The notes below the pieces were generated by a model. It was not told the DNA's origin and did not search any database. It saw nothing but the letters and a program-made list of their open reading frames with translations. Positions 3,805-21,592 of a stretch of 25,590 bases of DNA are shown here, one piece after another; position 1 is the first letter of the stretch; each line of letters starts with the position of its first letter. The stretch is taken from positions 1 through 25,590 of the IMG/VR virus record IMGVR_UViG_3300046009_004390. The stretch is one strand, 5' to 3'. A program made the position numbers and the translations under genes. Origin of the DNA: a virus.

Positions 3805-4087
3805 CCCTCGCGTCATCGTCTGCGCGTGCAGCGAGTGCGGGGCCGCGATGCCGCTCACGGAAGTCCTTCGCGCGGCGAACCCCTTCGACCTCAACGAGCT
3901 GATACAGGGCTGCCCGGCCTGCAAGAGCATCGACTCGATGATCCGCGTGTGCGAGGTCGAGGGCTGCACCTTCGACGCAACGTGCGGCATCCCGCTCAAG
4001 AGCGGACGCTATGTGCAGTGCTGCGGCTCACATTTCACGGCGCTCGAAGAGAACGACCGCGAGGACCGGCGTGAGCCAGACTGCTGA
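3761..4087 (+). CDS. Cys-rich zinc-ribbon-like protein
   Basis: I choose ATG at 3761 (108 residues); GTG at 3740 would add seven residues. The protein starts with a basic segment (MHRIRKLAQKPKLRDP) and then carries CACSECG, CPAC, CEVEGC, TCG and CCGSH motifs: about eleven cysteines plus His, enough for two or more structural zinc sites. Small zinc-ribbon proteins often bind nucleic acids or protein partners. It is squeezed between the putative small terminase and the large terminase and overlaps both (44 and 17 bases), which implies strong coupling to packaging genes. A role as terminase accessory factor is inference. No homologous family comes to mind. Confidence 0.7.
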   Translation: MHRIRKLAQKPKLRDPRVIVCACSECGAAMPLTEVLRAANPFDLNELIQGCPACKSIDSMIRVCEVEGCTFDATCGIPLKSGRYVQCCGSHFTALEENDREDRREPDC

Positions 4088-5585
4088 GGCTGCGCTCGAA
4101 GCACTCCGCTCCGCAGTCTCCGTGCGGAAGCGGGCGATGCTCTACCGGGAGACGCACGCCCGCGAGTTCGCGCCGCCGTGGTACGACTGGCAGCTCGACT
4201 TCTTCAGCGCCACCCGCAAGCACCGGCAAGTCATGCTCCTCGCGGCGAACCGCGTGGGGAAGACCTTCCCGGGCAGCTACGCCTTCGCCATCCACGCCAC
4301 CGGCCAATACCCCGACTGGTGGGGCGGCTGCGTCATCCACTACCCCGTCACGGCATGGGCTCTTGGCGTCGACGCGACCCAGACGCGCGACGTGCTACAG
4401 CGCGCCCTCTTGGGCATCGAGGGGCAGGACGGCGTCTGGCGCGGCGGCTGGATTCACCACGAGGAGATCGTCGACATCGAGCGCGGCAACCTGCCGGGCG
4501 CCGTCTCGAAGGTTTACGTCCGCCACAAGTCGGGCGGGATCAGCGTCATCGACTTCAAGGCATACCGTCAGGCCAGCACGGGCCAGAAGTCGCTGCCCTT
4601 CGCCGGCTCCTCCGTCGACGTGATGCTCGTGGACGAGCAGCCGCCTGACGAGGTGATGGGCCAGCTACGAACCCGCCTCATGACCGGCAGGAAGCACCGC
4701 GGCGGGCTCCTCATGCTGACGCTCACGCCCGAGCTTGGTGAGACGGAGCTGGTAGCTCAGTTCATGGGGTCGCGTGATCTCGTGAAGCGCCCGGGCAGGG
4801 ACAGTCGCAGGCAGCTCTACCTCGTCGGGCCGATCGCGTGGGACCGGGCCGCGCACCTGACGCCAGAGCTGCGCGAGGAGATGCTCGCCGACTACCCCGA
4901 GCATGAGCGTGATATGCGGTCCAAGGGACTGCCCTACTACGGGAGCGGGAAGATTTTCAGCATCGACGAGTCCATGGCGGTCATCCCGCCCTTCGACATC
5001 TCCCAGCGCCCGTGGCTGCGCGTGCTGCGCTCGCTGGACATCGGCATCGACCACCCGACCGCGATGGCGTGGCTCGCCTTCGACCCGGAGGCGCAGACGT
5101 ACATCCTCTGCAAGACCTTCAGGCAGGGCGATCGCTCGGCCTCCATCCACGCCTCCACCCTTAACTCGATGTGGCGCAACGCCCCGCTCGTGGTCCCGCC
5201 CGACATCGACTCCCGTGAGAAGGGCTCAGGCGAGACGGTGAAGAGCCACTACGAGGCCGGAGGCATCACGGCGCCCATGGTGACATTCCAGAACCCCGAC
5301 GGATCGCGCTACGTCGAGCCCGGCCTGTTCGCCATGCAGGAAGCCTTCCGCACCGGCCGGTTCCTCGTGTTCCGGGACGAGGCCGCGCACTTCCTCGAAG
5401 AGGCCCGCTCCTACCACCGTGACGAGAAAGGCGCTATCGTCAAGAGGCGGGATGATGTAATCGACGCGGTGAGGTACGGCTTCCAGATGGTCGCCACTCA
5501 CGGCATCCAAGCCGCGGAGCGCGAGCGCCCGCTGGCCGCTCAGGGCGGCCTCTACCCGCAGATGGGTCTTCGGCGAGTGAGGTAG
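4071..5585 (+). CDS. terL: Terminase large subunit (packaging ATPase and nuclease)
   Basis: GTG at 4071 has GAGGA at 4061-4065 as ribosome binding site; the product has 504 residues. The N-terminal ATPase domain shows a Walker A-like AANRVGKT (residues 58-65), a Walker B with catalytic Glu in MLVDEQ (about 185-190), and a coupling motif in LMLTLTPELG (about 214-223). The C-terminal RNase H-like nuclease domain shows acidic residues in SLDIGIDHP (Asp323), PPDIDSREKG (Asp378/380) and RRDDVIDAV (Asp461/462/465). This order is standard for tailed-phage large terminases, which cut concatemeric DNA and pump it through the portal. Length is normal and all key motifs seem intact. The portal gene follows within five bases. 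Confidence 0.93.
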   Translation: MSQTAEAALEALRSAVSVRKRAMLYRETHAREFAPPWYDWQLDFFSATRKHRQVMLLAANRVGKTFPGSYAFAIHATGQYPDWWGGCVIHYPVTAWALGVDATQTRDVLQRALLGIEGQDGVWRGGWIHHEEIVDIERGNLPGAVSKVYVRHKSGGISVIDFKAYRQASTGQKSLPFAGSSVDVMLVDEQPPDEVMGQLRTRLMTGRKHRGGLLMLTLTPELGETELVAQFMGSRDLVKRPGRDSRRQLYLVGPIAWDRAAHLTPELREEMLADYPEHERDMRSKGLPYYGSGKIFSIDESMAVIPPFDISQRPWLRVLRSLDIGIDHPTAMAWLAFDPEAQTYILCKTFRQGDRSASIHASTLNSMWRNAPLVVPPDIDSREKGSGETVKSHYEAGGITAPMVTFQNPDGSRYVEPGLFAMQEAFRTGRFLVFRDEAAHFLEEARSYHRDEKGAIVKRRDDVIDAVRYGFQMVATHGIQAAERERPLAAQGGLYPQMGLRRVR

Positions 5586-5589
5586 CGCG

Positions 5590-7716
5590 ATGGCAGCGGT
5601 CGAGTCAGAGGTGATGGCGGATCTCGTGGCGGGCGAAGTGGAGACGGCGGAGCCGGAATATCGCTATACCGACGAGGAGCTGGCGGCCCTCATCGACCAA
5701 GAGATCAGCTCGTCAGCGACGGGCGACTCCGACGACCAAGAGGACGACGTCGCGCTCGCGGTCGACTACTACCGCGGCGTCGAGCCGCAGCCGGCCGGCA
5801 CCAACACGTCGGACTACGTCTCGATGGAGGTCTTCGAGTCCGTCGAGAGCATGAAGGCGAAGCTCATGAAGACCTTCGCCGGGTCGCGCGACGTCATCCG
5901 CTTCAAGCCGATGAGCGAGCGAGACGTCGAGAACGCCCGCCTCCGCACCAAGTACGTCAAGCGCGCCCTGTTCCACGAGAACCCCGGCGCCGCGATCCTC
6001 CACGACGCCTTCCACGACCTCTGCCTGAAGCGCTTCGCGTGCGTGAAGCGCTACGTCAAGACAGAGCGCATCGTGACGTGGCGCGACCTCGAAGACATCC
6101 CGGAGGAGCAGATCGAGGCCGCGGTCATGATGGGCTCCGTCGAGGACATCGAGCCCATCTCCGAGCGCTGGGAGGACGTCGAGGTACCGACCCAGTTCGG
6201 CCCGGCCGTCATCCGCCAGAAGCTCATCACCGCCCGCGCGAAGACCGTCGAGGAGCGGCAGTACCTCTGCGTTGAGGTGCTGAAGCCCGAGAACGTCCAC
6301 GTCTTCGCCGGCGTCGAGGATCTCTCCGACCCCTCGCTCCTCCCCGGCGTCGCCATCTCGTACAGGAAGCGCCGTTATGAACTCATCCGGGAGGGCTTCG
6401 ACCCGGAGATCGTCGCCGAGCTGGAGTCAGCCTCGGGCTCCTCCGTGACCGACGATCGCAAGATCATGAACCGGGACTCGCGCAGCACGAACGGCTCGAC
6501 GTTGCGCGGGCTCGATGAGATCGACATCGAAGAGGCGTTCGTCCGCATCGACATGATGACGCCTCGTGACCTCCCCGAGGCCGATGCCGAGCTGTGGCAG
6601 ATCATCAAGTCCGGCGGAACGATCCTCCTCAAGCAGCGCGTCGACGAGATCCCGCTGCGCTTCGCCACCGCCTACCGCATCGCTCACGAGCCCGTCGGCC
6701 TGTCCGTGGCGGACGTGGCGATGGACGTGCAGCGCGCGACCTCGAACGTCACGCGCGGCATCATCGACAACATCCACCGCGTCAACGCTGGCGTCCGGGC
6801 CGCGGACCTCTCGAAGATCCGCAACCCGCGCGACCTCATCGACAACCCGATCGGCGGCATCGTCGACACGTCCGACCCGCAGGCCGCCTTCGCCGTCGTC
6901 CCGCAGCCCGCGCTGTCGGCCGGCACCATGCCGATGATGGAAGTCCTCGCCACGCAGAAGGAGATGCGGACGGGCGATATGCGGATGGGCCGCGGGCTCA
7001 ACACCGGCGACGTCATCACGCACCAGAACGCGAAGGACATGATCGCGCAGCTCATCGAGGTGGGGAACGCCCGCCCGATGATGATGGCGAAGCTCCTCGC
7101 CGAGACGTTCATGAGGCCGCTTCTCCTCGACCTCTGGAAGCTCGGCTTCGAGGCAGACGTGCCGCTGAAGCTCGACATGGACGGCAACGTCACCGAGGTG
7201 CGCCCGTCGCAGCTTGGCGAGGGTGACGAGATGGAGATCGACGACGCGCTCACTCCGGAGTACGGCCAGAAGCGCGCGCAGAACACCATCATGCTTCACT
7301 CGATGGTCATGGCGAACCCGACGCTCGCGCCGCTCTACCAGATGCAAGAGCAGTACGCCGCGATGTCCGAGGTGTTCGACCTCCTCGGCCAGCCCAATTG
7401 GCTCGCCAACCCCAGCGACCCGAAGGTGCAGCAGCGCCTCCAGCTCGCGCAGCAGGCGGCCCAGCAGGCGGCCCAGCAGCAGCAGGCGCAGATGGCCCAG
7501 CGCATCGGCATCGAGGTGGCGAAGCTCATGGCCGAGGCGCAGGCGAAGCAGGCCGAGCCCAAGCTCAAGAAGGAGGCCCTTGACCTTCAGGCGTCCACCG
7601 CCGCGGCCAAGCAGAACCTCGATGAGCGCAAGTTCCAGCACGAGGCTCAGGTCGACAAGGCCGAGCTTCAGATCGAGCGCGAGCAGAATCGCGCCGCGTC
7701 CATCGGGGACGTGTGA
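5590..7716 (+). CDS. Portal protein
   Basis: ATG at 5590 follows the terminase by four bases; 708 residues, a length close to the large portals of P22-like phages. The portal forms the dodecameric ring at one head vertex through which DNA passes. An acidic N-terminus is followed by the clip and wing region, and the core region has sequence typical of portals (LSVADVAMDVQRATSNVTRG, then NPIGGIVDT). The last 110 residues are a long Gln/Ala/Lys-rich helix, like the barrel extension of P22-type portals. Near 7450-7485 a 12-bp unit CAGCAGGCGGCC is repeated in tandem and runs into CAG repeats, which could change length easily. Family placement is by general pattern, not by search. Confidence 0.85.
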   Translation: MAAVESEVMADLVAGEVETAEPEYRYTDEELAALIDQEISSSATGDSDDQEDDVALAVDYYRGVEPQPAGTNTSDYVSMEVFESVESMKAKLMKTFAGSRDVIRFKPMSERDVENARLRTKYVKRALFHENPGAAILHDAFHDLCLKRFACVKRYVKTERIVTWRDLEDIPEEQIEAAVMMGSVEDIEPISERWEDVEVPTQFGPAVIRQKLITARAKTVEERQYLCVEVLKPENVHVFAGVEDLSDPSLLPGVAISYRKRRYELIREGFDPEIVAELESASGSSVTDDRKIMNRDSRSTNGSTLRGLDEIDIEEAFVRIDMMTPRDLPEADAELWQIIKSGGTILLKQRVDEIPLRFATAYRIAHEPVGLSVADVAMDVQRATSNVTRGIIDNIHRVNAGVRAADLSKIRNPRDLIDNPIGGIVDTSDPQAAFAVVPQPALSAGTMPMMEVLATQKEMRTGDMRMGRGLNTGDVITHQNAKDMIAQLIEVGNARPMMMAKLLAETFMRPLLLDLWKLGFEADVPLKLDMDGNVTEVRPSQLGEGDEMEIDDALTPEYGQKRAQNTIMLHSMVMANPTLAPLYQMQEQYAAMSEVFDLLGQPNWLANPSDPKVQQRLQLAQQAAQQAAQQQQAQMAQRIGIEVAKLMAEAQAKQAEPKLKKEALDLQASTAAAKQNLDERKFQHEAQVDKAELQIEREQNRAASIGDV

Positions 7717-10700
7717 TGGCGGCGCGGTTCGTCTCGACGCTGCTGAAGACCATCGAGGCCGCCGGGCCGAAGCAGAAGTTCGACGGCAAGCAGCTCGCCG
7801 CCTACCTGAAGAACAAAGGCGTCAAGCAGCAGGAGATCGAATACTTCGAGCGGCGCATGGGCCAGCCGTTCGCGGAGTCGACGAACCTCGGCGCGCTCAC
7901 GACGGACGGCTGGAAGAAGCTCCTCGAACCTCTCCAGCTTCCGATCGAGATCAGCCGCATGGGCGGCCGGTTCAACCCGGCGCTCATCGACGACGAGCGT
8001 GTTGCCTCCAAGCTGGAGGGGATCTCGGCCAACATCGCTGAAGACCTTGCGCGCTACGGCAAGGCAAGCCTCTGGGACGGCGGCTGGCTGGTCGGATCGC
8101 CGACCGGCGCACTCACCCGGGCGGAAACCTACGGCGAGGCGGCCGATCTCGTCAGGAAGAACTTCGGCGACACCGACGTCAAGGTCTTCAATCAGTTCTC
8201 CGACGGCAGATACGCCGAGGACGCCTACTTGGGGGCGCTGACGGAGAACCCCGAGCAGTACCTCGGCGAAGACATCCGCGATCGCGCGCGCAGGCTCATC
8301 GAGCGCGACGAGCAGACCGCCAAGCGCCAGCAAACCCGCTTCGGCGAATACACGACGGAGCATGGTGACTCAAACTCCTACGAGGAGATCGTCTTCCGCG
8401 CGCCAGAGGCGACGACGCCCGATCGTGAGTGGAAGGGCCATCACCACTTCCCCTCCGCTGGCCCGGGCTACCTCGCGCATATGCGGACGAACGAGCGCCC
8501 CTTCTCCAACTCGCTCTTCATCGAGGAGATCCAGAGCGACCTCCACCAAGGCCGCAAGGCGGGCGACTATCGGCCTATGCCCGGAGTAGAGGACAAGTCG
8601 GTCGAGTTCCGCGACCGACTCTCGGCTCTCATGAGGCAGATGCAGGAAGCCAACTCGGCGTACTACAACGCGCGCGGAGGCAGCGCAGAGGAGGCTGCTG
8701 CGCTCGCGAGGCAGCGCGAGCTTTCCGAGCAAGTAGGCGCTCTGGATCGCGAGGCGCGCGACGCAGGCTTTGCCAACTACCGCGACAACATGGACGCGCC
8801 AGCAGCCGAAACCCCGTGGCGCACCAACTGGATCGAGAAGGCTTTCCAGCAAGCCATCACCGACGCATCCGAGCGCGGCCTTGGCGCGGTCGAGTGGACG
8901 CCGGGCTACGTCCAGTCGATGCGCTGGACGCTGGACAACCAGCAGGGCTACTCGAACATCTACGACAAGGAGATCACGCAGGCCGCCCGCAAGCTCCAGC
9001 GCCAGTACGGCGGCGAGATCACGGAGCCTTCTCGCACGTTCAATGACGTGAACCGCACAGACCTACCGGACGAAAGCGACGCTCGGGACGAAGCGCTCCG
9101 CGAACTCGCGGACGATGAGCCAAGCGCGGAAGACTTCAGGATCGAGGGTGTCGACGAGAACGGCGAGCCGACGGACGACTACGAGTTCGATCAGGACGCC
9201 TACGACGAGGCGATGGAGCGCTGGAGCGCACGCGTCGACCAGCGCGAGCGGGAGATCCTCGACGAGATCGAGGAAGCCAAGTACGTCACCGAGGACGACC
9301 GCTGGCGCTTCGAGATCACTCCGGCCCTTGCCGAGCGCGCGAAGCAGGGCTGGCCGACGTGGGCCCTCGCCCCCGGCGCCATCGGCCTCGGCGCTCTCGC
9401 GAGTGACGACGCAGAGGCCGCGTTCTCCACGCGCATCCCGAAGACGATCCCGATGGGCGAGGCGTCCGCGCTCATGGATGCCCGTCGTGACGCGGCCAAG
9501 GCGCTTCAGGAAGGCGACAGCATCACCGACGTCATCGACCGCACCGGCTGGCAGCCGGATATGCGGATCGGAAGCAGCGGGCTCGTCCTGCCGCGCGACG
9601 CCGTTGAGCAGAAAGTCCGGTCAACGACTCACCTCGACGACGTCATGCCGATGCTTGGCCGCGAGATCCCGTCATGGAACGGCACTATCGACTGGAGCAA
9701 GCTCGGCGCCCCGCAGCTCTCATCGTTCGACGACGTGGTCGCGATCGGAGCGAACCCCGTCGGGCGCAGCATGGCCGGTGGCGCCCTGCTTGGGGAGTTC
9801 GCCGATCTCCCAGACCTCTTCCGCTTTGACCCCGAATACCGCGCCCTCCCGGTCCTCCCTGACGATCGCGACGGGTTCATCGGCTCCGCCGGCTGGCGAA
9901 CGTTCGACGCAATGGCAGGGAATGTGACCCCCTCGCGCGCGGCGCTCGGCATCGACACGCGCTTCGATCAGAGCCCGCTCGCGCAGCAGCTCAGTCCAGT
10001 GACCGGGCTCTTCAGCCAGCGCAACACGCTACTCAGCCACGAGATCCCGCACGTCGAGCGGGAGGCCAGCATCTCGGCGTCCGATGACCCGATGCTTCTG
10101 TCCGCACGGTTCGGCGAGGAGAACTTCGGCTATTGGAAGATGCCTCACGAGGTCGGCTCGCGGGCCAGCGAGCTGCGCGGCCGTGATGCGCCGGGCGGCC
10201 CGCTGGAGCCGTACATCGACACCATCGAGCGGGTGCGGCAGGCGTACCAGCAGAACGCGATCGTGCCCGGCAACGAGGCCAGCACCTACAGGCACGCCGG
10301 CTACTTCCTGCCGAAGGGCATCACCCGGCGGGCGGGGGCTGGCGCGGGCGTCGCATCACTCCCCCTCTTGAGCGGCGAGCAGGCCGAGGCCGCCGCCCTG
10401 CGCGAGGCTGCCGAGGGCGATGAGGCGGCGACGGCAGAGGCCGCCACAGCCGCGTCTGCCGCTGCGGCCACCCCGTATGGCGGCCTGCTGTATTCGTCGC
10501 CCTCCGACCTCCTCCAAGGCGCTCGTGCGGCCCTGTCGGGCGTGGCCGGCGCCGCTGTGGGCTTCGTGCCGGACTTCGTCACCGGGGTCGGCGAGGAGCT
10601 GTCCCGGGCCACCCGCGCCCGGGAGCAGATGGACGCCTACCTCGCCGGGACGGCCGACTCCCCTCTGGCCCGGCCTTCCGAGATTCCCGAGCTGCCCGTC

Positions 10701-11846
10701 GTGACCGACGAGGCGATCGAGGCGCTGGGCGTCGACCCGTCGGACCCGAACGCGCTCGTGGGCAGCCTCATCGCCCCGCTGACGCCGCTCGCCGCCGGCA
10801 AGCGCGCAACGTGGGCGGCTCGTGAGGGGCTCGCGATGCTCCGCAACCGCCGGCCGCCGCTGTCGGCGAGCCCGACGGAGCTGTCCGTGACCTCCGAGTT
10901 CGTCCCGGGCAGCGAGACGGGGCATATGCTCGACGCCAAGGGCGAGCCGCTCCTCGCGGCGCCATGGCGCGACCGCTACGCCTACTCGCTCACCATGGAG
11001 CCGCCTGTCGCGGGGTCGGTCGATCCGATCTATGCGGCGCTCGGCTACGGGCAGATGCCGGCGCTGCGCGGGCTCGGCAACTACACGGGGCCGTCTGGTA
11101 AGCCGGAGCGCAACCCGCTCATCGTGTCGCGCGTCGAGACTCCCGCCGGCCCGCTCACCGAGGAAGTGCGCGAGGACGCGAACTTCGCCGAGTACCTCCG
11201 CGGCGCGCTGACCGCCCAGAACGCTTCGGCCGCGCACAAGATCCTGCCGTCGACGTGGGGTAACGCTGACGCGGTCGCGGTGCAGACGTCGCTCCCGGGC
11301 TATGCTTACCCCGACATGATGGAATCGGCGCGCCTCTCCGCGGATCGCGCCGGCGTGCCGTGGGTCGATCGTGGCGATGGCCGCCTGACGCTGGCGCCGG
11401 GCTTCGCGGACAAGCCGCTGAAGACCCCGAAGCTGTCGGCCGTGCGCGGCGTCCTCAGCGCCGATGCGTGGCCGCAGATCCGCGGCGAAGCGGGCAAGAT
11501 CGACAGTGTCTACGCTTCGCTCCCGTGGGGTCCAGAAGGCTCAGGGCAAGTGACTCAAGGACTGCTATCGCAAATAGCAGCGGCCAAAGACCCGTCTCGA
11601 TTCTGGAAAGCAATCGAAGACCCAGCGGTAGCGGAGCGGGCTGGTCAGCTCGCACAGGGCGACAAGAGGTTCGGGGCAGCGAGCGGTCGCACGCCTCGGA
11701 AGGACATCCAGCGCTTGCGCTGGCTGATAGCGAACGGAGCCCTTCGTCAGTACGTCCAGAAGTTCGGGACGAAGGGCCTTCCCGCCGGGGCTGGGATTGG
11801 CCTCGGCCTTGGGGCTCTTCGCGAAGAAGACGCCGAATCGATTTGA
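7716..11846 (+). CDS. Giant multidomain phage polyvalent-type protein
   Basis: ATG at 7716 overlaps the portal stop (TGATG); a GTG at 7713 would add one residue. The product has 1376 residues. Residues 1-75 and 215-440 match the pattern seen in large phage polyvalent proteins: an N-terminal helical module (GVKQQEIEYFE), then SYEEIVF, YLAHMRTNERP, LFIEEIQSD (267-275), WRTNWIEKAF and GAVEWTPGYVQ. A very acidic linker (450-530) follows. HEIPH at 775-779 with HEVGSRASELR at 811 onward resembles a zincin metallopeptidase site. A third domain spans about 985-1180. Three Gly-rich hydrophobic segments ending in AEA or AES lie at about 549-568, 873-895 and 1355-1376. Its place between portal and scaffold suggests a packaged protein injected with DNA; anti-host or structural roles are both possible. 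Confidence 0.8.
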   Translation: MAARFVSTLLKTIEAAGPKQKFDGKQLAAYLKNKGVKQQEIEYFERRMGQPFAESTNLGALTTDGWKKLLEPLQLPIEISRMGGRFNPALIDDERVASKLEGISANIAEDLARYGKASLWDGGWLVGSPTGALTRAETYGEAADLVRKNFGDTDVKVFNQFSDGRYAEDAYLGALTENPEQYLGEDIRDRARRLIERDEQTAKRQQTRFGEYTTEHGDSNSYEEIVFRAPEATTPDREWKGHHHFPSAGPGYLAHMRTNERPFSNSLFIEEIQSDLHQGRKAGDYRPMPGVEDKSVEFRDRLSALMRQMQEANSAYYNARGGSAEEAAALARQRELSEQVGALDREARDAGFANYRDNMDAPAAETPWRTNWIEKAFQQAITDASERGLGAVEWTPGYVQSMRWTLDNQQGYSNIYDKEITQAARKLQRQYGGEITEPSRTFNDVNRTDLPDESDARDEALRELADDEPSAEDFRIEGVDENGEPTDDYEFDQDAYDEAMERWSARVDQREREILDEIEEAKYVTEDDRWRFEITPALAERAKQGWPTWALAPGAIGLGALASDDAEAAFSTRIPKTIPMGEASALMDARRDAAKALQEGDSITDVIDRTGWQPDMRIGSSGLVLPRDAVEQKVRSTTHLDDVMPMLGREIPSWNGTIDWSKLGAPQLSSFDDVVAIGANPVGRSMAGGALLGEFADLPDLFRFDPEYRALPVLPDDRDGFIGSAGWRTFDAMAGNVTPSRAALGIDTRFDQSPLAQQLSPVTGLFSQRNTLLSHEIPHVEREASISASDDPMLLSARFGEENFGYWKMPHEVGSRASELRGRDAPGGPLEPYIDTIERVRQAYQQNAIVPGNEASTYRHAGYFLPKGITRRAGAGAGVASLPLLSGEQAEAAALREAAEGDEAATAEAATAASAAAATPYGGLLYSSPSDLLQGARAALSGVAGAAVGFVPDFVTGVGEELSRATRAREQMDAYLAGTADSPLARPSEIPELPVVTDEAIEALGVDPSDPNALVGSLIAPLTPLAAGKRATWAAREGLAMLRNRRPPLSASPTELSVTSEFVPGSETGHMLDAKGEPLLAAPWRDRYAYSLTMEPPVAGSVDPIYAALGYGQMPALRGLGNYTGPSGKPERNPLIVSRVETPAGPLTEEVREDANFAEYLRGALTAQNASAAHKILPSTWGNADAVAVQTSLPGYAYPDMMESARLSADRAGVPWVDRGDGRLTLAPGFADKPLKTPKLSAVRGVLSADAWPQIRGEAGKIDSVYASLPWGPEGSGQVTQGLLSQIAAAKDPSRFWKAIEDPAVAERAGQLAQGDKRFGAASGRTPRKDIQRLRWLIANGALRQYVQKFGTKGLPAGAGIGLGLGALREEDAESI

Positions 11847-11857
11847 CGGAGCGAACC

Positions 11858-12046
11858 ATGGATACAAAGTACCCGAACAAGCTGCGCCCGGCAACCGACA
11901 CCAAGCCGGCCCATGAGAAGCCCGCGATCGCCGCGGACCCCTTCGACATCGAGAAGGCCCGCGAGCGGCGCGACGCGACCACCCCGCAGGCTCAGGCCGC
12001 GCTCCGCCGGAAGCGCATGGCCGAGCTGGCCGGGGGCAAGCCGTGA
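11858..12046 (+). CDS. Small hypothetical helical protein
   Basis: ATG at 11858 has CGGAG upstream at suitable spacing. The product is 62 residues with a Lys/Pro-rich N-terminus (MDTKYPNKLRPATDTKPAHE) and a basic C-terminal helix (ALRRKRMAELAGGKP). The stop overlaps the next start as GTGA. Short basic proteins before the scaffold gene occur in many phage head modules, but no specific family is recognised. Role in head assembly is only suggested by position. Confidence 0.7.
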   Translation: MDTKYPNKLRPATDTKPAHEKPAIAADPFDIEKARERRDATTPQAQAALRRKRMAELAGGKP

Positions 12047-12390
12047 GCCTCCTCGACCGCTTCATCCGTCGGCCGATCCTCGGCACGCCGCCGAAGCAGC
12101 CGTACACCGAGGAGCGCCTCGCCGAGCTGCGCGGGCGCGCCGAGCGTGCCGCGGCCCTCCTCCGCAGCGACGCCTTCGTCGCGGCATATCAGTCATCGCT
12201 CGACACCATCATCGACGAGCTGCTGGCCCTCAACGTCACGGACCTCGATGCGCCCGCGAAGGCGCTGGGGCTCGTGGCGAAGGCGCAGGCGCTCCGCGAG
12301 CTGGTGGGCGACATGAACCGCACCGTCAACGAGTGGGAGCTGGAAGATCGGAAACGCCAGCCCACCCGCGTGACACGCATCTCCGCTTGA
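12043..12390 (+). CDS. Hypothetical helical head-module protein
   Basis: GTG at 12043 overlaps the previous stop (GTGA); the product has 115 residues. It starts MSLLDRFIRRPILGTPP and is mainly helical, with long amphipathic stretches (RLAELRGRAERAAALLRS, AYQSSLDTIIDELLAL, KAQALRELVGDMNRTV). No enzyme motif, cysteine or membrane segment is visible. It lies just before the scaffold gene and is probably co-expressed with head proteins. It could be a small head assembly or minor capsid protein; this is inference from position and size. Confidence 0.72.
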   Translation: MSLLDRFIRRPILGTPPKQPYTEERLAELRGRAERAAALLRSDAFVAAYQSSLDTIIDELLALNVTDLDAPAKALGLVAKAQALRELVGDMNRTVNEWELEDRKRQPTRVTRISA

Positions 12391-12410
12391 CTCCCACAAG
12401 AAGGTAGCTT

Positions 12411-13508
12411 ATGAACGTGACTCAGCAGCCCCCGGGCAATGACCAAGCGCGCAACGCGCAGTCCTCTGGCCCGCAGCAGCCTCCGCAGTCCCTCGGGCTC
12501 TCGGAGGCTGCCCGGCTCCTCGCACAGCGTCGGAGTGCCCTGCGCCAGCAGCCCGCACCAACCGAGCAGCAGGAACCGCAGCGGCGTGCGCCGGCCGAGG
12601 AGTTCGCCGATGAGGCGGGCGACGAGGTCGAAGCGCTGGCAGGCGACGAAGGCGAGGAACTCGAAGGTCAGGAACTCCAGCCGGACGGCGAGGAGCAGGC
12701 CGAGGCCGACGAGGGAATCACCGACGACGCGATCCTCGAACTCGACGGCGAAGAGATCCCGCTGTCGCAGATCAAGGAGTGGCGCGAAGGCGCCATGCGT
12801 CAGGCCGACTACCAGCGGAAAACCCAAGCCCTGTCGCAGCAGATGCAGGGGATCACGGAGCTGGAGTCGAACCTCAACAGGTTCGCTCATGCCATCAACC
12901 GGGACTTCCAGTCGCGGATCGAGATGGCATCCCGTGCCCTCCGGCCGTTCGCTGAGACGGACTGGGCGAAGCTCGCTCGTGAGAACCCGGCCGAATACAA
13001 CGGGCGGAAGGTGCAGTTCGAGCAGGCCAAGGGCCAGCTCGCAGCCATGCAGCAGCAGTGGCAAGCCTTCGCGCAGGAGTACGACGGGCTCTCGCAGCAG
13101 GCGATTCGCATGAAGGCCAAGGCGGCCCTGCCCGAGATCAAGCAGCGGATCAAGGGCTGGAACGACGCGCTCTACACCGAGCGCATGGCCTTCGTGAAGG
13201 ACACCTATCGGGCAGACGTCGACACGCTCTCCAAGGTCACGGACCCGTGGTTCTGGGAGTTGGCGAACGACGCCTACCTGTACCGGAAGGGCAAGCAGCT
13301 TCCCGCGCAGTCGAAGACGAAGCGGATTCTGCCCAAGCCCATCCGCGGCGGACAGGCTACTCCGCGCCAGCCGTCACAGGCGAAGGTGCTGGAGCAGCAG
13401 GTCCGGCAGATTGGACCGGGGAGCCGCACCAGCGAGCGTGAGGCACTCGGAGTGAAACTTCTTCAGCAGCGTCGCGCAGCCGCACAGAAGGCCGCGACGC
13501 GGAGGTAA
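12411..13508 (+). CDS. Scaffold-like head assembly protein
   Basis: ATG at 12411 has AGAAGG upstream; 365 residues. The N-terminal 60 residues are Gln/Pro-rich and disordered, residues 60-105 are very acidic (about every second residue Glu or Asp), and a long helical middle part contains heptad-like segments (LSQQMQGITELESNLNRF and others). The C-terminus is basic and Gln-rich (ending QQRRAAAQKAATRR). This make-up, and the position directly before the major capsid gene, are typical of phage scaffolding proteins, which help coat subunits assemble round the portal and leave before or during packaging. The family is too variable in sequence for a closer label. No protease domain is seen. Confidence 0.8.
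   Translation: MNVTQQPPGNDQARNAQSSGPQQPPQSLGLSEAARLLAQRRSALRQQPAPTEQQEPQRRAPAEEFADEAGDEVEALAGDEGEELEGQELQPDGEEQAEADEGITDDAILELDGEEIPLSQIKEWREGAMRQADYQRKTQALSQQMQGITELESNLNRFAHAINRDFQSRIEMASRALRPFAETDWAKLARENPAEYNGRKVQFEQAKGQLAAMQQQWQAFAQEYDGLSQQAIRMKAKAALPEIKQRIKGWNDALYTERMAFVKDTYRADVDTLSKVTDPWFWELANDAYLYRKGKQLPAQSKTKRILPKPIRGGQATPRQPSQAKVLEQQVRQIGPGSRTSEREALGVKLLQQRRAAAQKAATRR
13501..13505 (+). promoter_or_regulatory. Strong ribosome binding site of the capsid gene
   Basis: GGAGG, followed by TAAG, lies in the last codons of the scaffold gene and nine bases before the capsid ATG. It is one of the strongest SD matches in the window, as expected for the most abundant virion protein. Confidence 0.75.
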
Positions 13509-13514
13509 GCCAAC

Positions 13515-14648
13515 ATGGCACGCGCAATCATCACCGGCGTCGGCGGTGTACCGCAGTCGTCGGTCGCATCCCGCACGAACAACGCCTACAACACCGAGGG
13601 CGTCGTCGAGTCCGTCGAGGACATCATCGAACTCATCTCGCCCTATGAGACGCCCTTCTACAGCCAGATCGAGAAGGGCGACGTCAAGGACCGCCTCCAC
13701 TACTGGCAGGAAGACGTGCTGGAGCCGGCGGTCCGCAACAACGCGGTAATCGCGGGCTGGGAGCCCGTCACCGCCGCCTCGTGGAACACGTCGACCCCCG
13801 GCATGAAGTCCAACTTCGTGCAGACGTTCCTCAAGACGGCGCGCGTCACCGGCCAGATGCGGGCGGTCGACACCTACGGTCGCGGCGACGAGCTGGACTA
13901 CCAGATCATGAAGCGTGGCCGTGAGCTGAAGCGCGACATCGAGTCGTCGCTGCTTGCGGACTCGACCGGCGTGGTCGGCGGCGGCGGCACCGGCGCGAAC
14001 GCGGCGTTCCCGCAGGACGTGACGGGCGCCACCGCGGCGACGCTCACCGGCGCATTCCGCCTCATCAACACCGGCAACCTGCCGATCGGCGCCACGTCAG
14101 CCGCGGGCGCGGGCTCGGTGTTCGCCGGTCAGGCCGGCGGCGATGCGACTGGCGCGCAGCTTTCGGTCACGACCCCGGGCACGAACCGGCCGTTCACCGA
14201 GATCATCCTTCTGGCAGCGCAGAAGGCGGTCTATGACGCCGGCGGCACCCCGACGCAGGCGATCATGAGCGCCTTCCACGCGCAGATCATGGCGAACTTC
14301 GCCTACATCGACCCGACCACCAGCTCGGGCCTCAATGCAGGCACCCGCGTTCGCCAGATCGCCAGCGACAACGCCATCACCAACGTCGTCGATATGTATA
14401 AGTCGCCCTACGGGACGATCGCCGTCGTCATCGACCGCTTCGTGCAGGGCAACCTCCCTACCGAGACGAAGGGCTTCGTGCTGCTGGCCGACCCGGACTT
14501 CTGGAAGCTCGGCGTCCTGCGTCCGATGCAGTCGGAGATGCTCGCGAAGACTGGCGACAACGACAAGGCGATGCTCATCGCCGACTACACGCTCATCCAC
14601 AAGAACACGAGCGCGTCTGGCGCGATCCGCGACCTCAACGTAACGTAA
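13515..14648 (+). CDS. Major capsid protein (DUF5309/SU10-like, HK97 fold)
   Basis: ATG at 13515; 377 residues. Segments typical of this capsid family are an N-terminal VEDIIELISPYETPFYSQI, HYWQEDVLEPA, a central GRELKRDIESSLLAD, AIMSAFHAQIMANF, DMYKSPYGTIAVVIDRFV, LLADPDFWKLGVLRPM, and a C-terminal LAKTGDNDKAMLIADYTLI. Such proteins have the HK97 fold and form the icosahedral shell. A Gly/Ala/Thr-rich stretch at about residues 150-225 seems long for the family and may be a surface insertion. The gene has a strong SD and is followed at once by an intrinsic terminator, consistent with very high expression. No N-terminal prohead protease site is evident. Confidence 0.9.
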   Translation: MARAIITGVGGVPQSSVASRTNNAYNTEGVVESVEDIIELISPYETPFYSQIEKGDVKDRLHYWQEDVLEPAVRNNAVIAGWEPVTAASWNTSTPGMKSNFVQTFLKTARVTGQMRAVDTYGRGDELDYQIMKRGRELKRDIESSLLADSTGVVGGGGTGANAAFPQDVTGATAATLTGAFRLINTGNLPIGATSAAGAGSVFAGQAGGDATGAQLSVTTPGTNRPFTEIILLAAQKAVYDAGGTPTQAIMSAFHAQIMANFAYIDPTTSSGLNAGTRVRQIASDNAITNVVDMYKSPYGTIAVVIDRFVQGNLPTETKGFVLLADPDFWKLGVLRPMQSEMLAKTGDNDKAMLIADYTLIHKNTSASGAIRDLNVT

Positions 14649-15717: not shown

Positions 15718-16920
15718 ATGCCGATCGGCTCACTCAACACCGCTACGCCGGGGTCCGGCGAAGTAGCGGGCACGTCTGGCCCTTCCGAGCTGAAGGGGAT
15801 CAAGACCGAGATCCGCGCGAGTTTCCCGAACTTCACGGCAGGCAACGACGTCGTTACGAAGACCGCGTCCCAGCTCAACGACGCCCCCCAGAAGGGCGCT
15901 TCCGAGACGATCACCGGCGCGTGGTCCTTCATTGGGGACCCAACCAAGAACGGCTGGTCGATCGCGAACGTCAACGAGGCGACCTCGATCGCCAACTCAG
16001 CCGTCGCAAGCTATGTCTCGACGGTGCTGAGTTCGGCCGTCGCAGTCCCGGGCGTCTGGAACTTCATCAACGGGCTTCAAGCCTCTGGGCTCACCGCCCC
16101 CTCGCCTTCCGGCCTCGTGTCGCTCGCCCTCAGTTGCGGCAACGCAAACGCCTTCCTGACAACTACTGCCGGCTCCATTCAGGTCAGCGCGAACGGGGCG
16201 TTCGACCTTGTCGATGGCTCGGCGCTCCGCGTCCGAGACGCAACGTCTGCCGACTCCGCATCTTTCAGCCACGACGGCACCAACTTTCTTGGCGCCTTCG
16301 TCGGCACGACAAACTGGCTCATCACCGGCATAAGCAATATCCTGCTTGGCAGCGACACCCTCGCCACGCAGGCATACGCAGCCAACTACACCGTCAGCGC
16401 ACTCAACAGCCCGCAGACCATCCCGGCTGTCTGGAACTTCTCCGCCGGGCTTCAGTCGGGAGGCGCTTCAGTTGCCACGCAGGCGTGGGCCAACGCCGCG
16501 ATCGCCGCAGAGCGCTGCTACGGCAAGTGCGACGTCAACATCTCTGGGGCAGGCACCGGGTCGGTTGTTCTTCTCACTGGAACGGCAAACGCCGTCCCGC
16601 TGGAAAATGTCACGCACAACAGCGGCGCAGGCACGCTGACCGTTGCAGTCGCCGGCGACTACCGTGTCGTCGTATCCGGGTCAAACGCCTTCTCTGGGGC
16701 GACGGGGCTCAATGCAAACTTCGGGTTCATGAAGAACGGCGGCCCCGGGTTCGATACCTCCGTGCAAGTGTCTTCTTCGATCCAGAACTCGATTTCTATC
16801 TACGTCGAAAACCTCGTCACGCTCGCTGCAAACGACACGATCTCCCTCGGGATGAACATTCCGGTCGGAGTGAATGTGAGCGGCTCGCTCCGCCTGACCG
16901 TGCAGAGAATCGGCGCGTAA
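15718..16920 (+). CDS. Fibre-like virion protein with VWNF repeats and C1q-like C-terminus
   Basis: ATG at 15718 has AGGTGA upstream; 400 residues. Residues 22-40 (GPSELKGIKTEIRASFPNFT) resemble the attachment end of phage fibres. A repeated motif follows: ITGAWSF at 65-71, VPGVWNF at 110-116 and IPAVWNF at 235-241, the last two both followed by GLQ and Gly-rich sequence. Such ITGxWxF repeats are common in fibres. The last 125 residues (from about 275) are beta-rich and hydrophobic, ending in SLRLTVQRIGA, and resemble the C1q/TNF-like jelly roll at the tips of some phage fibres. It lies between adaptor and tail structural protein and is probably trimeric. Host receptor binding is likely but not shown. 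Confidence 0.72.
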   Translation: MPIGSLNTATPGSGEVAGTSGPSELKGIKTEIRASFPNFTAGNDVVTKTASQLNDAPQKGASETITGAWSFIGDPTKNGWSIANVNEATSIANSAVASYVSTVLSSAVAVPGVWNFINGLQASGLTAPSPSGLVSLALSCGNANAFLTTTAGSIQVSANGAFDLVDGSALRVRDATSADSASFSHDGTNFLGAFVGTTNWLITGISNILLGSDTLATQAYAANYTVSALNSPQTIPAVWNFSAGLQSGGASVATQAWANAAIAAERCYGKCDVNISGAGTGSVVLLTGTANAVPLENVTHNSGAGTLTVAVAGDYRVVVSGSNAFSGATGLNANFGFMKNGGPGFDTSVQVSSSIQNSISIYVENLVTLAANDTISLGMNIPVGVNVSGSLRLTVQRIGA

Positions 16921-18584
16921 TGCTCGTCCGCATCCCAAAGCTCGGCTCCGTAGGCGTCCGCTCGACGGACGACTACCCGCCGTCCGAGCTGCCGCCGAAT
17001 GCCTTCACGTCGTCTGACAACGTCAGCTTCAGTGACGGCTGCGCTCGGAAGATGCCGGGATGGCTGCCGGCTATCAGCGGCTTCACGAAAGACCAGCTCT
17101 GGATGCAACCGTGGGAGGACGACGACACCATCTCGATCGCCTTCGGCGCCGCCGACGAGATCAGCACGACGATCAACGGCGTCAACATCGTCGCGGCGAC
17201 GATCCTCGATCAAGCGGGCGTGGCATCGACGGTGAGCGCCAGCACAGGCTGGCAGTCGGACGTCTTTGGCGGGTTCTGCATCATGAACAACCGCGTCGAC
17301 ATCCCGTACTACTCCAGCGCCTTCGCGACTCCGACGTGGACGTTCCGCGAGATCCCGGGCTGGGGCGCTGCCACGTCACCGGCTGGTGCCGTGCAGAGCG
17401 TCCGCAGCTTCCAGAACCATCTCATCGCGCTCGGCGTCGTCGACAACCCCTACACGGTCTTCATCTCCGATCAGGGCAGCCCGGAAGCTTTCCCGACGAG
17501 CTGGGACTACGCCGACCCCACGAAGCTCGCTCGGCGATTCCCGCTCCAGTCGAAGGATGGCGCGATCGTCGACGGCGGCATCCTCAACGACCGCTTCATG
17601 GTCTACCAGCGCTACGCCTGTGTGGCTCTGGAGTACGTCGGTGGCGCATTCGTCATGGCGGCCCGTCGCGTGCTGGACGTGGGCCTCATCAACCGCGACG
17701 CATGGGTGCAGTTCCAGAACTTCCACTTTGTCGTCTCTGAGCGCTCGATCAGCATCCACGACGGCTCACAAGGAACGCGGCCGGACGACGACTACGTCGA
17801 GAACCGCTTCTTCGGCGAGCTGTCGGACCCGGCCGCGGTGTTCGTCACGAAGGACGAAGAGAACCACGAGATCCTCGTCTACTACCCGACCGAAGGCTCG
17901 GTCCCGAACCGCATCCTCACCTACAATTGGATCGACCGGACGTGGTCATTCGCGACCATCGGCTCCGATGTGCGGCGAATCGTGCAGGGCATCGGCCCCG
18001 CTCAGGGTTCGACGTGGGCGCAGCTCGCCTTCCCATGGGAGTCGATCAACCAGACGTGGGCGCAGCTCGCGCGTACCGATCGAAGCACGAAGCTACTCCA
18101 GCTCCGCGATCGCACCGTCGACATCCGTGGCAGCTCTTTCACGAAGACGCTCAATGAGGAGATTGTCGCCGCTGTCGACTCTCTCGATGACCTCGGCTGG
18201 GACGCCTCCGACGATCTACTGTGGGGCTCTGGAGATTCGGCAGTCGACTACGACGCATGGGTCGAGCGACTGACCATCGACCTCGACGAGCTGACCGGCA
18301 ACTCCGGCCAGATAAAGTACCTCGACGCCGTCTACTTCCAAGCGTGCGGCGATGGCTCGATCGACATCCAGTTCGGCATCTCCAACTCGCCGCGCGACCC
18401 GCCGCGCTGGGGGAAAGTCAGAACCGTCGACCTCGGGACAGAGCTGCGCCGCGAGAAGGTCGACGTGCGCCTCACGGGTCGGTACTTCCACTGGCGAGCC
18501 GGCAACTGGCGCGGAGAGCCCAAGCCCGGCGCGTGGAAGATCGCAACCATCGACCTCTCTCTCCAGCAGGAAGGGCTCCGGTGA
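16920..18584 (+). CDS. Tail-associated structural protein (propeller-like)
   Basis: ATG at 16920 shares one base with the previous TAA; 554 residues. The sequence matches a large protein found beside the adaptor in many podoviruses: near the start VSFSDGCARKMPGW, then SVRSFQNHLIALG, SWDYADPTKLARRF, DGAIVDGGILNDRFMVYQRY, FHFVVSERSISIHDG, and ILTYNWIDRTWSF. The repeated short beta-strand units with W and aromatic residues suggest a beta-propeller fold. It likely forms part of the short tail or tube below the adaptor. An 18-bp in-frame direct repeat gives two TWAQLA units near residues 365-385. A C-terminal beta domain ends in IATIDLSLQQEGLR. No enzyme motif is seen. Confidence 0.78.
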   Translation: MLVRIPKLGSVGVRSTDDYPPSELPPNAFTSSDNVSFSDGCARKMPGWLPAISGFTKDQLWMQPWEDDDTISIAFGAADEISTTINGVNIVAATILDQAGVASTVSASTGWQSDVFGGFCIMNNRVDIPYYSSAFATPTWTFREIPGWGAATSPAGAVQSVRSFQNHLIALGVVDNPYTVFISDQGSPEAFPTSWDYADPTKLARRFPLQSKDGAIVDGGILNDRFMVYQRYACVALEYVGGAFVMAARRVLDVGLINRDAWVQFQNFHFVVSERSISIHDGSQGTRPDDDYVENRFFGELSDPAAVFVTKDEENHEILVYYPTEGSVPNRILTYNWIDRTWSFATIGSDVRRIVQGIGPAQGSTWAQLAFPWESINQTWAQLARTDRSTKLLQLRDRTVDIRGSSFTKTLNEEIVAAVDSLDDLGWDASDDLLWGSGDSAVDYDAWVERLTIDLDELTGNSGQIKYLDAVYFQACGDGSIDIQFGISNSPRDPPRWGKVRTVDLGTELRREKVDVRLTGRYFHWRAGNWRGEPKPGAWKIATIDLSLQQEGLR

Positions 18585-18844
18585 TTCGCCCCTACACCCC
18601 CGCGCGCGCCTCCCCGGGCGACCTCGAATCGCTGCGCCGATTCCTCCAGATGGAACTCGACAAGATCGCCGCGGCGTTCGCGCGCGACATCGAGGCCGCG
18701 GGGAACGGGCAGCACGGAACCTCGGGCGAGGCCGGGCTTCTGCTGTACGTCAACCGCACTGGCAGCGTGAGCCTGTCGCGGGTCAAGATAGGGCCTGTTG
18801 ACTCCGCGGGCGTCGGGTTCCGCTCACTCCGCATCGACAACTGA
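18581..18844 (+). CDS. Small virion-associated hypothetical protein
   Basis: GTG at 18581 overlaps the previous stop as GTGA; 87 residues. An N-terminal helix (LESLRRFLQMELDKIAAAFA) is followed by a short beta domain: GEAGLLLYVNRTGSVSLSRVKIGPVD, then GVGFRSLRIDN. Small proteins with this order (a helix, then LLYV, V.IGP.D, and a final R.LR..N) are often found next to tail proteins in podovirus genomes. The role is unknown, perhaps a minor tail or head-tail component. It ends seven bases before the next ATG. Confidence 0.72.
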   Translation: MIRPYTPARASPGDLESLRRFLQMELDKIAAAFARDIEAAGNGQHGTSGEAGLLLYVNRTGSVSLSRVKIGPVDSAGVGFRSLRIDN

Positions 18845-18851
18845 GGGCGCC

Positions 18852-19886
18852 ATGGGACTCTTCGACAACGAAAGCACGACAACGGGAACCCCGTGGGGCC
18901 CGCTCCAGCAGCCCACGCTCGGCGGCGTCAACTACATCCAGAACCTTCTCCAGCAGGGGCCGTGGGGCGGGCCGTACACCGCGCCGATCGACCCGCTCCA
19001 GACGCAGGGCATCCAGCAGGGCGCGGCGGCGGCCGGCGGCGCCGGCGGCATCGCCAACGCCTACCAGCAGCAGGGGCAGGGGCTCCTCCCCGGGATGCAG
19101 CAGGGCTTCGGCTACTTCGGCTCCGCGCTCGCCGGCGGCATGAACCCGTGGGTCACCAACCCGCAGCAGTACCTCGGCATCGCCCAGAACGTCGCGAACA
19201 ACCCCTACATGGACTCCATGGTCACGTCGGCGCTGCGTGACCCCTTCCGCCAGCTCACCGAGCAGATGCTCCCCGGCATCCGCTCCGGCGCGAACATGGC
19301 GGGGCAGGCTGGCGGCTCACAGGAGGCCGTCATGAGCGCGATCGCGAACCGCGGCTACGCCGACCGGGCCGCAGATGTCGGCGCGCAGATGCGCGGCGGC
19401 GCGTACTCGCAGGGGCTTGGCTTCGCGAACCAAGCCGCGCAGTCCGATATGGCGCTCCAGCAGGCGGCAGCACAGAACCTCTTCAACATGGGCCAGATGG
19501 GCCTCGGCTTCCTCGGGCAGGGCTACGGCATCGGCCAGCAGGGCGCGCAGGACACGTTCAACTGGGGCACGCAGGGTCAGGGGCTCCAGAACCAGCAGCT
19601 TCAGGGTCAGATGGCGCAGTTCATGGCCCCGTGGGAACTGGCGAAGTCCTACGGCTCCTACATCAACCCGCTCGCCGGCAGCCTCCAGCAGCGCACCAGC
19701 TCGCAGGATATGCTCCCGGCCTACCTGCTTCAGGGGCTCGGGCCGATCCTCTCCGCCGGCGGCGGCGCCGCGGGTCAGTGGCTCTTCGGCACCCCGGGCG
19801 TCAACGGTCAGCCCGGCACCCCGGGCAACCTCGGGAGGCTCCTCGGCAAGATCCCCGGCCTCGGCGGGATCTTCGGGGACGGTTAA
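18852..19886 (+). CDS. Gly/Gln-rich probable internal virion protein
   Basis: ATG at 18852; 344 residues. It is rich in Gly, Gln and Ala throughout. A middle segment (AGQAGGSQEAVMSAIANRGYAD) is like that of proteins found among podovirus internal or ejection proteins, where an N-terminal VTSALRDPFRQLTEQMLPG-type helix precedes it. Near the end, a short collagen-like stretch (GTPGVNGQPGTPGN) precedes KIPGLGGIFGDG. No cysteine or enzyme motif is visible. Its stop overlaps the next start (TAATG), placing it first in a row of similarly composed virion proteins. It is probably carried in or at the head and released with the DNA, which is inference from composition and order. Confidence 0.68.
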   Translation: MGLFDNESTTTGTPWGPLQQPTLGGVNYIQNLLQQGPWGGPYTAPIDPLQTQGIQQGAAAAGGAGGIANAYQQQGQGLLPGMQQGFGYFGSALAGGMNPWVTNPQQYLGIAQNVANNPYMDSMVTSALRDPFRQLTEQMLPGIRSGANMAGQAGGSQEAVMSAIANRGYADRAADVGAQMRGGAYSQGLGFANQAAQSDMALQQAAAQNLFNMGQMGLGFLGQGYGIGQQGAQDTFNWGTQGQGLQNQQLQGQMAQFMAPWELAKSYGSYINPLAGSLQQRTSSQDMLPAYLLQGLGPILSAGGGAAGQWLFGTPGVNGQPGTPGNLGRLLGKIPGLGGIFGDG

Positions 19887-21592
19887 TGCGCGGCCTCGCC
19901 CCCCTCAGCTCGCCGGCGTGGTATCGGGGCTTCGACCCGATCGCCGTCCCGTGGGGCGAGGGCGACGACTCCATGGGGCTCGGCCTGCCCGACATCCTGT
20001 CCTTCGCCAGACAGCCGCAGAGCCCGCAGGGGGCAGGACAGGGCCCCGGGAGCGGTCAGGGCACGGGCGGCGGGACTTCGAGCGGCAGCGCCGGCGGTAG
20101 CGCGTCCGGCGGCGCCACGTCCGGCTCACAGACCGGCGGCGCGTCAGGGCCGCCCACGGGCGGCGGTACGCTCCCGCCAGTCTGGCAGCCCGGCGGCAGC
20201 CTGCCGCTCCCGCGCAGCTCGACCGGCGACATCGACTGGGGGGTCATCGGCGGCGTCCTCGGGTGGCCGGCGGCCGGCGACAGCCCCACCGACCCGACGA
20301 GCGACTTCCCCGTCCGCGAGGGCGCCCCGGCCGCCCCCTACCCGGGGACGCCGGCCGGCACCTTCGGGGTCGAGGGCGACCCGGAGAGCTGGGGCGACGC
20401 GGAGTGGCAGGAGTGGCAGCGCCGGCGCGGCGAGTGGCAGCGCTGGTGGGAGGCGAACCGGGTCGGCGCGGCCGACGGCGGCGGCCTCGGCGGATCGTCT
20501 GGCGGCTCGACCGGGTCGGCCGGCGGCGGCTCTGGTGGCGGCGGCGGAAACGGCCAGCCGACCACTCCGCCCCCGCCCTTGCCGCCGACCGACTGGGGGT
20601 TCGGCATCGACATCCCGGACGCGGCCTTCGATCCCGACGTGGACGCGATCGTGAAGGGCATCGGCGCGCTGCCCGACATCATCGGAGGTTCCACGGGGAA
20701 CATCCCGCAGTTCATGCCCGGGGAGGTCGGCGGCGCGCCCGCTGGCGGCTCGGCGGCGGGCAACTTCGGCAACTTCATCGCCCGCCTGAAGGCGATCCCC
20801 GACATCCTCGACTTCAAGGAAGACCCTCGTGGCGCGTTCACCGGCGCCATCACGCTTGCCAACCCGGCGGCCGGGGCGCTGGCCGGGGGCTTCCTCGCGC
20901 TCTCCGACTGGGTCAACGCCGGCAACAGCGGCGCCCGTCAGGACCGCCGCGACGAGCTGAACGAGCGTGGCCGGATGATCGCCGACCCGGTGATGGGCGC
21001 CTTCTGGCGCGAGCTGGGGCGCGACCCGGAATGGGTTCTCAACGCCCGCTCTGGCGTCGGCTCCGAGGACGCGCAGTTCTATGGCGACTGGGCCGGTTGG
21101 CTCGGCTCATCCGGCGTCGGCGGCCGGCCAGACACCCCCTTCCAGAACTTCGGCGGCATGGCGCCGCAGGACGCCTACCGCGCGATCGGGCAGTCGCTCG
21201 TGGACTACTACGGCACGCTCTCGCCGGAGGCGCAGCAGTCGCTTCGCGGGCTCGGCTCTGGCGAGTACGCTCCGCGCGCATTCCTCCAGAACAACTTCGG
21301 GTGGGATCCTGAGCAGCCGGCGCCCAACCTCGGCGGGTGGGGCGCCAATGCTGGCGACCTCTCTGGGTTGGAATACCTCTTCAACGAGATCAGCCCGCGG
21401 ATGATGGGCACGCAGAACGCGCTCCTCACGCAGCCTGACGAGTGGACCGATTGGCTCGCTGGATTCCAAGGGCTCCGGCCCAACGTCGCGATCCCCCAGC
21501 CGACGACGACGCTCGACGCAATCCGCAACTGGGAAGCGTGGCGCGCGCAGGCGGAGCAGAACTTCATAAACCTCGGGAACGGGTATCCGTGA
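19886..21592 (+). CDS. Large Gly/Ser-rich virion protein with Trp-rich helix
   Basis: ATG at 19886 overlaps the previous stop; an ATG at 19973 is a less likely start. It has 568 residues. Residues 45-100 and 195-230 are Gly/Ser/Thr linkers. Between them lies a Trp-rich helix (EWQEWQRRRGEWQRWWEANR, about 173-192). Residues 318-342 form a Gly/Ala-rich hydrophobic segment (FTGAITLANPAAGALAGGF). The C-terminal half (from about 345) is a folded acidic/aromatic domain with DYYGTLSPEAQQSLRGLG. Together with its neighbours it fits a set of internal or ejection proteins that interact with membranes. I know no named family. Its high Gly content is repeat-like but codon use stays phage-typical. Confidence 0.65.
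   Translation: MRGLAPLSSPAWYRGFDPIAVPWGEGDDSMGLGLPDILSFARQPQSPQGAGQGPGSGQGTGGGTSSGSAGGSASGGATSGSQTGGASGPPTGGGTLPPVWQPGGSLPLPRSSTGDIDWGVIGGVLGWPAAGDSPTDPTSDFPVREGAPAAPYPGTPAGTFGVEGDPESWGDAEWQEWQRRRGEWQRWWEANRVGAADGGGLGGSSGGSTGSAGGGSGGGGGNGQPTTPPPPLPPTDWGFGIDIPDAAFDPDVDAIVKGIGALPDIIGGSTGNIPQFMPGEVGGAPAGGSAAGNFGNFIARLKAIPDILDFKEDPRGAFTGAITLANPAAGALAGGFLALSDWVNAGNSGARQDRRDELNERGRMIADPVMGAFWRELGRDPEWVLNARSGVGSEDAQFYGDWAGWLGSSGVGGRPDTPFQNFGGMAPQDAYRAIGQSLVDYYGTLSPEAQQSLRGLGSGEYAPRAFLQNNFGWDPEQPAPNLGGWGANAGDLSGLEYLFNEISPRMMGTQNALLTQPDEWTDWLAGFQGLRPNVAIPQPTTTLDAIRNWEAWRAQAEQNFINLGNGYP

Follow-up and report, generated by a model that had tools for sequence, protein, structure and literature searches.

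A probable polyvalent-type protein encoded between the portal and scaffold genes of an SU10-type head operon

The DNA analysed here, the 25.6-kb IMG/VR virus record IMGVR_UViG_3300046009_004390 (positions 1 to 25,590; hereafter the window), carries an SU10-type head operon in the order terminase large subunit (TerL), portal, P0001, two small open reading frames (ORFs), scaffold, major capsid protein (MCP) and adaptor. We propose that P0001 is a phage-type polyvalent protein that is made alongside the head proteins, enters the capsid and is co-ejected with the DNA, a reading to which we assign a probability of roughly two in three. What is new is that P0001 joins this known class carrying a widespread domain for which Pfam holds no model. 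Its domain content, genomic position and divergence pattern are shown here; the functional steps discussed below are inferred.

Results

An identical copy of P0001 is present in a 41 kb contig (L002), and a diverged orthologue occupies the same slot in a 43 kb contig (L123, 9365-13570). As the frame is kept over its full length between P0001 and L123, with codon-position identities of 0.62/0.66/0.51, P0001 is a real gene. Its features, all on the plus strand, are as follows.

7716..11846, plus strand: P0001, 1376-residue polyvalent-type protein (stop-free translation of 1376 residues plus stop; L123 orthologue)
7725..7853, plus strand: N-terminal helical "FxSxL...GVKxxEI" (GVK) domain, residues 4-46 (motif upstream of the EIQSD motif)
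8331..9023, plus strand: EIQSD domain, residues 206-436 (one family of 112 viral pieces; AlphaFold2 core with a predicted local distance difference test score, pLDDT, of 88-97)
8523..8540, plus strand: EEIQSD, residues 270-275 (invariant positions in 54 sequences; EEWQND in L123)
9375..9419, plus strand: boundary element 1, residues 554-568, GAIGLGALASDDAEA (pattern count against shuffles)
9453..9563, plus strand: LPD23-like segment (TGW), residues 580-616 (Pfam LPD23, PF18838, E 0.0023)
9771..10205, plus strand: zincin-like MPTase domain, residues 686-830 (hhalign score 48.6 against the classic HEIQHAIQ profile)
10038..10052, plus strand: HEIPH (HExxH), residues 775-779 (kept in L123)
10335..10391, plus strand: boundary element 2, residues 874-892 (pattern count against shuffles)
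10392..11786, plus strand: lineage-specific C-terminal region, residues 893-1357 (L123 is the sole relative)
11787..11840, plus strand: boundary element 3, residues 1358-1375 (pattern count against shuffles)

The polyvalent reading is carried first by the EIQSD domain. A phmmer search with P0001 matched unrelated viral ORFs over this module, far beyond chance and down to E 4e-22, and a degenerate DNA pattern for FIEEIQSD matched at least 120 viral contigs. All 112 usable viral pieces belong to one EIQSD family, each with E <= 1.4e-39 against a final profile that was seeded with P0001; the single-sequence phmmer search had alone already reached the value given above. Six residues (R257, E270, E271, Q273, D275 and P367) are invariant in 54 EIQSD sequences. 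Bacterial and archaeal assemblies of many phyla contribute a further 64 contigs with the domain, some of which may be binned phage contigs; a first scan of genome-assembly contigs with the P0001/L123 alignment had found no relative. Pfam has no family over the domain, whether 14 whole proteins or 54 domain sequences are scanned, and in PHROGs it is contained solely within phrog_7348. In phage proteins the EIQSD domain co-occurs with ART-PolyVal and LPD22. The first-pass annotation of the window had quoted SYEEIVF, LFIEEIQSD, WRTNWIEKAF (368-377) and AVEWTPG (391-397) as marks of a polyvalent module; all four are present, the module is a genuine phage and plasmid polyvalent family, and LPD23-like and MPTase regions follow it.

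Upstream of the EIQSD domain lies the GVK domain, whose residues 4-21 are identical in L123. Its FxSxL...GVKxxEI motif precedes the EIQSD motif by 120-330 residues in 41 of 101 sequences, compared with 1 of 58 control stretches, and the GVK domain therefore travels with the EIQSD domain. The LPD23 segment scores 18.1 bits in P0001 and about 15.7 in a genome search, below the curated cut-off of 27, and is for this reason named LPD23-like only; the L123 and L002 records contain no LPD23 match other than this one (E about 6e-4).

The MPTase assignment was kept only after a profile-profile test with shuffles. Classic polyvalent proteins, retrieved through their HEIQHAIQ motif, share the order TGW...LxxVxxHPxLFxAYP...HEIQHAIQ...GExEAR, and residues 580-870 of the P0001/L123 pair align with their profile in the same order (hhalign score 48.6, probability 92). 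None of 200 column shuffles reaches this score (the best is 21.8), and against the same profile TerL, portal, scaffold, MCP and adaptor windows score at most 17.4. The MPTase profile also matches the zinc peptidase IrrE in the PDB (E 0.0012). Both HEIPH and PHE(V/I)GSRASELRGR are conserved between P0001 and L123, and E812, located in a predicted helix of a low-confidence model, is a candidate third zinc ligand. The same arrangement recurs in a 3171-residue protein of an unrelated 54 kb virus record (L140/L360), with GVK at 956-990 (weak, E 0.04), EIQSD at 1100-1324 and LPD23 plus MPTase at 1284-1604, so that the order GVK, EIQSD, LPD23, MPTase is common to both proteins. Of the four P0001 segments that the first-pass annotation had singled out for profile searches, 1-75, 200-440 and 570-860 match polyvalent-type domains, and 985-1180 matches nothing except L123. 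The same holds for the last 500 residues as a whole.

Three boundary elements, each a Gly/hydrophobic run followed by acidic-AE(A/S), begin at residues 554, 874 and 1358, that is, past the EIQSD region, past the MPTase region and at the C-terminus. None of 3000 block shuffles of P0001 reaches three copies, for a pattern that was picked after the copies had been seen. The element is over-represented only within P0001; as a family-wide feature it was rejected, as 117 EIQSD ORFs contain 6 copies where 6.0 are expected. The elements could be processing sites or membrane-active segments.

Where do relatives of P0001 reside? Several terminases are found among the genes that precede EIQSD genes, and 46 downstream neighbours include portal phrog_1216 in 9 cases and phrog_156 in 4, in addition to head-tail adaptors and tail genes. 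The content of the portal-scaffold slot varies among SU10-type phages: SU10 itself has a 237-bp ORF only, the slot is empty in PfAn1, and one further contig (L125) has nothing large there. The slot thus accepts optional cargo. In the SU10-type virus MW202710.1 (L257), it holds an unrelated 508-residue Gly/Ala/Thr-rich ORF (3849-5375) and a small ORF.

P0001 also diverges far more than the genes around it. Between the window and L123, identity is 97% for TerL, 87% for the portal, 92% for the scaffold and 94% for the adaptor, compared with about 44% (tblastn) or 49% (alignment) for P0001. The divergence is uneven: residues 543-620 share 91% amino acid identity with L123, with fourfold-degenerate sites at 81%, like core genes; the MPTase region (621-870) shares 66-77%, the EIQSD part 20-55% and the C-terminus 29-49%, where fourfold sites are largely saturated (0.26-0.42 over 1061-1376). 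The pattern resembles what recombination between divergent alleles would leave on either side of a shared centre, and rapid mosaic divergence next to near-identical head genes would fit a host-facing role. The MCP (13515-14648), about 56-59% identical to L123, forms a second hotspot of divergence within the operon. Further downstream, the product of 15921-18584 is 88% identical to L123 over residues 332-694 and has no counterpart there for about 33-331; its C-terminal part matches phrog_3287, and the gene looks like one with a variable insert.

Head operon and neighbouring genes

The genes that flank P0001, all on the plus strand, are listed here.

4011..5585, plus strand: TerL (Terminase_6N/6C)
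5590..7716, plus strand: SU10-type portal protein (PF23899, E 5e-103; phrog_1216)
12043..12390, plus strand: 115-residue small protein between the P0001 and scaffold genes (codon-position identity to L123 of 0.96/0.97/0.89)
12411..13508, plus strand: head scaffolding protein (phrog_3927, E 4e-21)
13515..14648, plus strand: SU10-type major capsid protein, SU10_MCP (PF17236, E 5e-65)

The translation and the overlap of the portal stop TGA (7714-7716) with the P0001 ATG (7716-7718), giving TGATG at 7714-7718, agree with the annotated 1376-residue ORF coupled to the portal gene; translation could alternatively begin at an in-frame GTG at 7713. The profile matches to PF23899 and phrog_3927 likewise bear out its position between portal and scaffold, with the refinement that two short ORFs precede the scaffold gene, one ending at 12046 and the other, 12043-12390, kept in L123. 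An Arg/Pro-rich ORF at 11913-12407 was rejected as spurious because L123 has a stop within it; the overlapping frame that is conserved is 12043-12390. A promoter scan of the head operon found none, and terminators were at chance level. Whole-protein searches with P0001 returned no match by tblastn in the phage and plasmid collections, by phmmer against the PDB, or in NCBIfam.

Elsewhere in the window, a member of a phage PDDEXK endonuclease family (PF24579, E 9.5e-19) is encoded at 2046-2492, ahead of the terminase gene. The product of 18798-19886 weakly matches phrog_4287 "DNA ejection protein" (E 2e-6) and is a candidate ejection protein distinct from P0001. Within 19001-22000, G+C reaches about 0.74, compared with 0.65-0.67 in much of the window.

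Discussion

P0001 combines at least two disparate domains in one large chain (GVK, EIQSD, LPD23-like and MPTase), these domains are common to other polyvalent proteins (with ART-PolyVal, LPD22, LPD23 and MPTase as partners), and its gene lies near virion and late genes (portal, scaffold and MCP). Because its domains recur in large injected polyvalent proteins, P0001 is probably packed into the head and sent into the bacterium. It would be made with the head proteins and loaded into the capsid near the portal, as its operon position and the analogy to P1 DarB suggest, and would then be ejected into the host along with the DNA. The MPTase may cut P0001 either before or after its ejection, with the three AEA-type boundary elements as possible sites, and the EIQSD domain might thereby be released as an enzyme acting on a host target. 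P0001 is possibly self-processing, in keeping with the proposal that polyvalent MPTases cleave the chain to which they belong (PMC5512222).

Several results weigh against this reading. With HMMER alone, the MPTase is not significant in P0001 (best stretch E 4.9, and the wrong stretch). Its structural model is poor (pLDDT 62), with three strands, the HEIPH helix and then a Glu-bearing helix, and a Foldseek search with it returned no zincin match. At the site aligned with the classic third-ligand motif GExEAR, P0001 reads YFLPK, a lack of conservation that may mean an inactive peptidase. For the EIQSD model, the PDB search gave no significant match (best E 0.3), and the last 500 residues contain no known toxin domain.

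What could the EIQSD domain be? Its AlphaFold model has three strands and a coiled insertion, plus one helix and one further strand. GNATs make up about 15 of the 50 PDB matches listed, and six matches in a viral structure library have E <= 0.001, one named LPD-containing and the rest unnamed or uncharacterised. Aligned with 22 GNATs by hhalign, the domain scores 21.6 compared with at most 12.8 in 60 shuffles, at a probability of only 6.7%; the alignment sets VPDAPF..W..LA.KR..R.AAENG on GNAT motif A/alpha3, with no Q/RxxGxG loop. No GNAT family appears among the Pfam matches listed for 54 EIQSD members. We regard this weak GNAT-like signal as a lead rather than an assignment. Two GNAT families, RimI-like, have been reported in polyvalent proteins. 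Among 40 module-bearing records, two Pfam GNAT matches fall in very long ORFs, about 500-600 residues from the module, and were set aside as separate domains. Tentatively, and with less confidence than we place in delivery itself, the EIQSD domain might be an unrecognised effector enzyme, its fold being either entirely new or that of a divergent GNAT-like acyltransferase. It would have an E-E-x-Q-x-D centre and a variable coiled insertion, and hundreds of phages as well as some plasmids, spread over many phyla, would deliver it, with the linked metallopeptidase setting it free.

Could P0001 instead be mainly an internal ejection protein that, similar to those of T7-type phages, aids DNA across the envelope, its polyvalent domains being accessory or vestigial? 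The EIQSD-bearing gp34 of Pelagibacter phage HTVC028P is encoded within an internal-virion-protein block before the tail fibre, and in P0001 itself hydrophobic stretches rich in Gly occur at 554, 874 and 1358, while residues 871-985 are rich in Ala and Gly. However, the invariant charged EIQSD residues and the ART, LPD23 and MPTase partners found elsewhere point to enzymes, a further candidate for an ejection gene is present in the window at 18798-19886, and related SU10-type phages manage without a P0001 gene. P0001 has no Pfam or PHROG match to T7-type internal virion proteins. We consider this explanation unlikely, although it is the strongest of the alternatives.

Considerably less probable is an assembly factor whose zincin matures scaffold, portal or capsid with no delivery to the host. 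Its place between portal and scaffold and its conserved HExxH motif would suit such a role, but self-processing is the activity proposed for polyvalent MPTases (PMC5512222), phages of the same head type lack the gene, and P0001 diverges much faster than its supposed substrates scaffold and portal. Least probable is a late intracellular protein, neither packaged nor injected and placed in the head operon for expression timing only: no packaging signal has been demonstrated, but relatives in unrelated phages stay beside terminase, portal or internal virion genes, and the published polyvalent class is recognised by virion context (PMC5512222). The same recurrence of virion neighbours upholds the head-operon argument of the first-pass annotation, from which packaging and injection follow only as probable steps.

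Polyvalent proteins are proposed to be phage first-strike proteins, and few have been tested. P0001 ties a common domain absent from Pfam to a compact, well-defined head operon, in a gene whose rate of change far exceeds that of the genes beside it. A small phage of the SU10 type that encodes a single protein of this kind may offer a tractable system for polyvalent function and for the release of domains by a peptidase.

Comparison with known systems

Phage-type polyvalent proteins (Iyer et al. 2017, PMC5512222) are the closest counterpart of P0001, which is likewise large and multidomain, has LPD23-like and MPTase regions and is encoded among virion genes; its EIQSD domain also occurs in proteins with ART-PolyVal, LPD22 and LPD23. 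Unlike them, P0001 has as its largest recognisable domain one without a Pfam model (EIQSD); it is also smaller than many, and its C-terminal 500 residues are unique to its lineage. In phage P1, the 251 kDa head protein DarB is present in the virion and listed beside the portal ORF, and its first 30 residues suffice for packaging (PMC9024508); P1 DdrB carries a polyvalent MPTase (PMC5512222). P0001 itself has no tblastn match in the phage collection, and the anti-restriction role of DarB is not transferable to it.

HTVC028P gp34 (QPZ53416.1, 954 residues) has a GVK-type motif and EIQSD, as in P0001, and lies between "internal protein A"/gp35 and "internal virion protein" gp33, ahead of the tail fibre; unlike in P0001, Pfam finds no LPD23 or MPTase in it. 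ANY29564.1 of Pseudoalteromonas phage PH1 combines a GVK-like N-terminus with EIQSD (E 2e-21) and is encoded directly after TerL, with no similarity to P0001 detected beyond the EIQSD region. Finally, WP_042853530.1 of the Pseudomonas aeruginosa plasmid p382 (L354, NZ_CP115292.1) is plasmid-borne, about 5000 residues long and has nine ART-PolyVal stretches and EIQSD after LPD23/MPTase, unlike P0001, yet it joins LPD23, MPTase and EIQSD in one chain as P0001 does.

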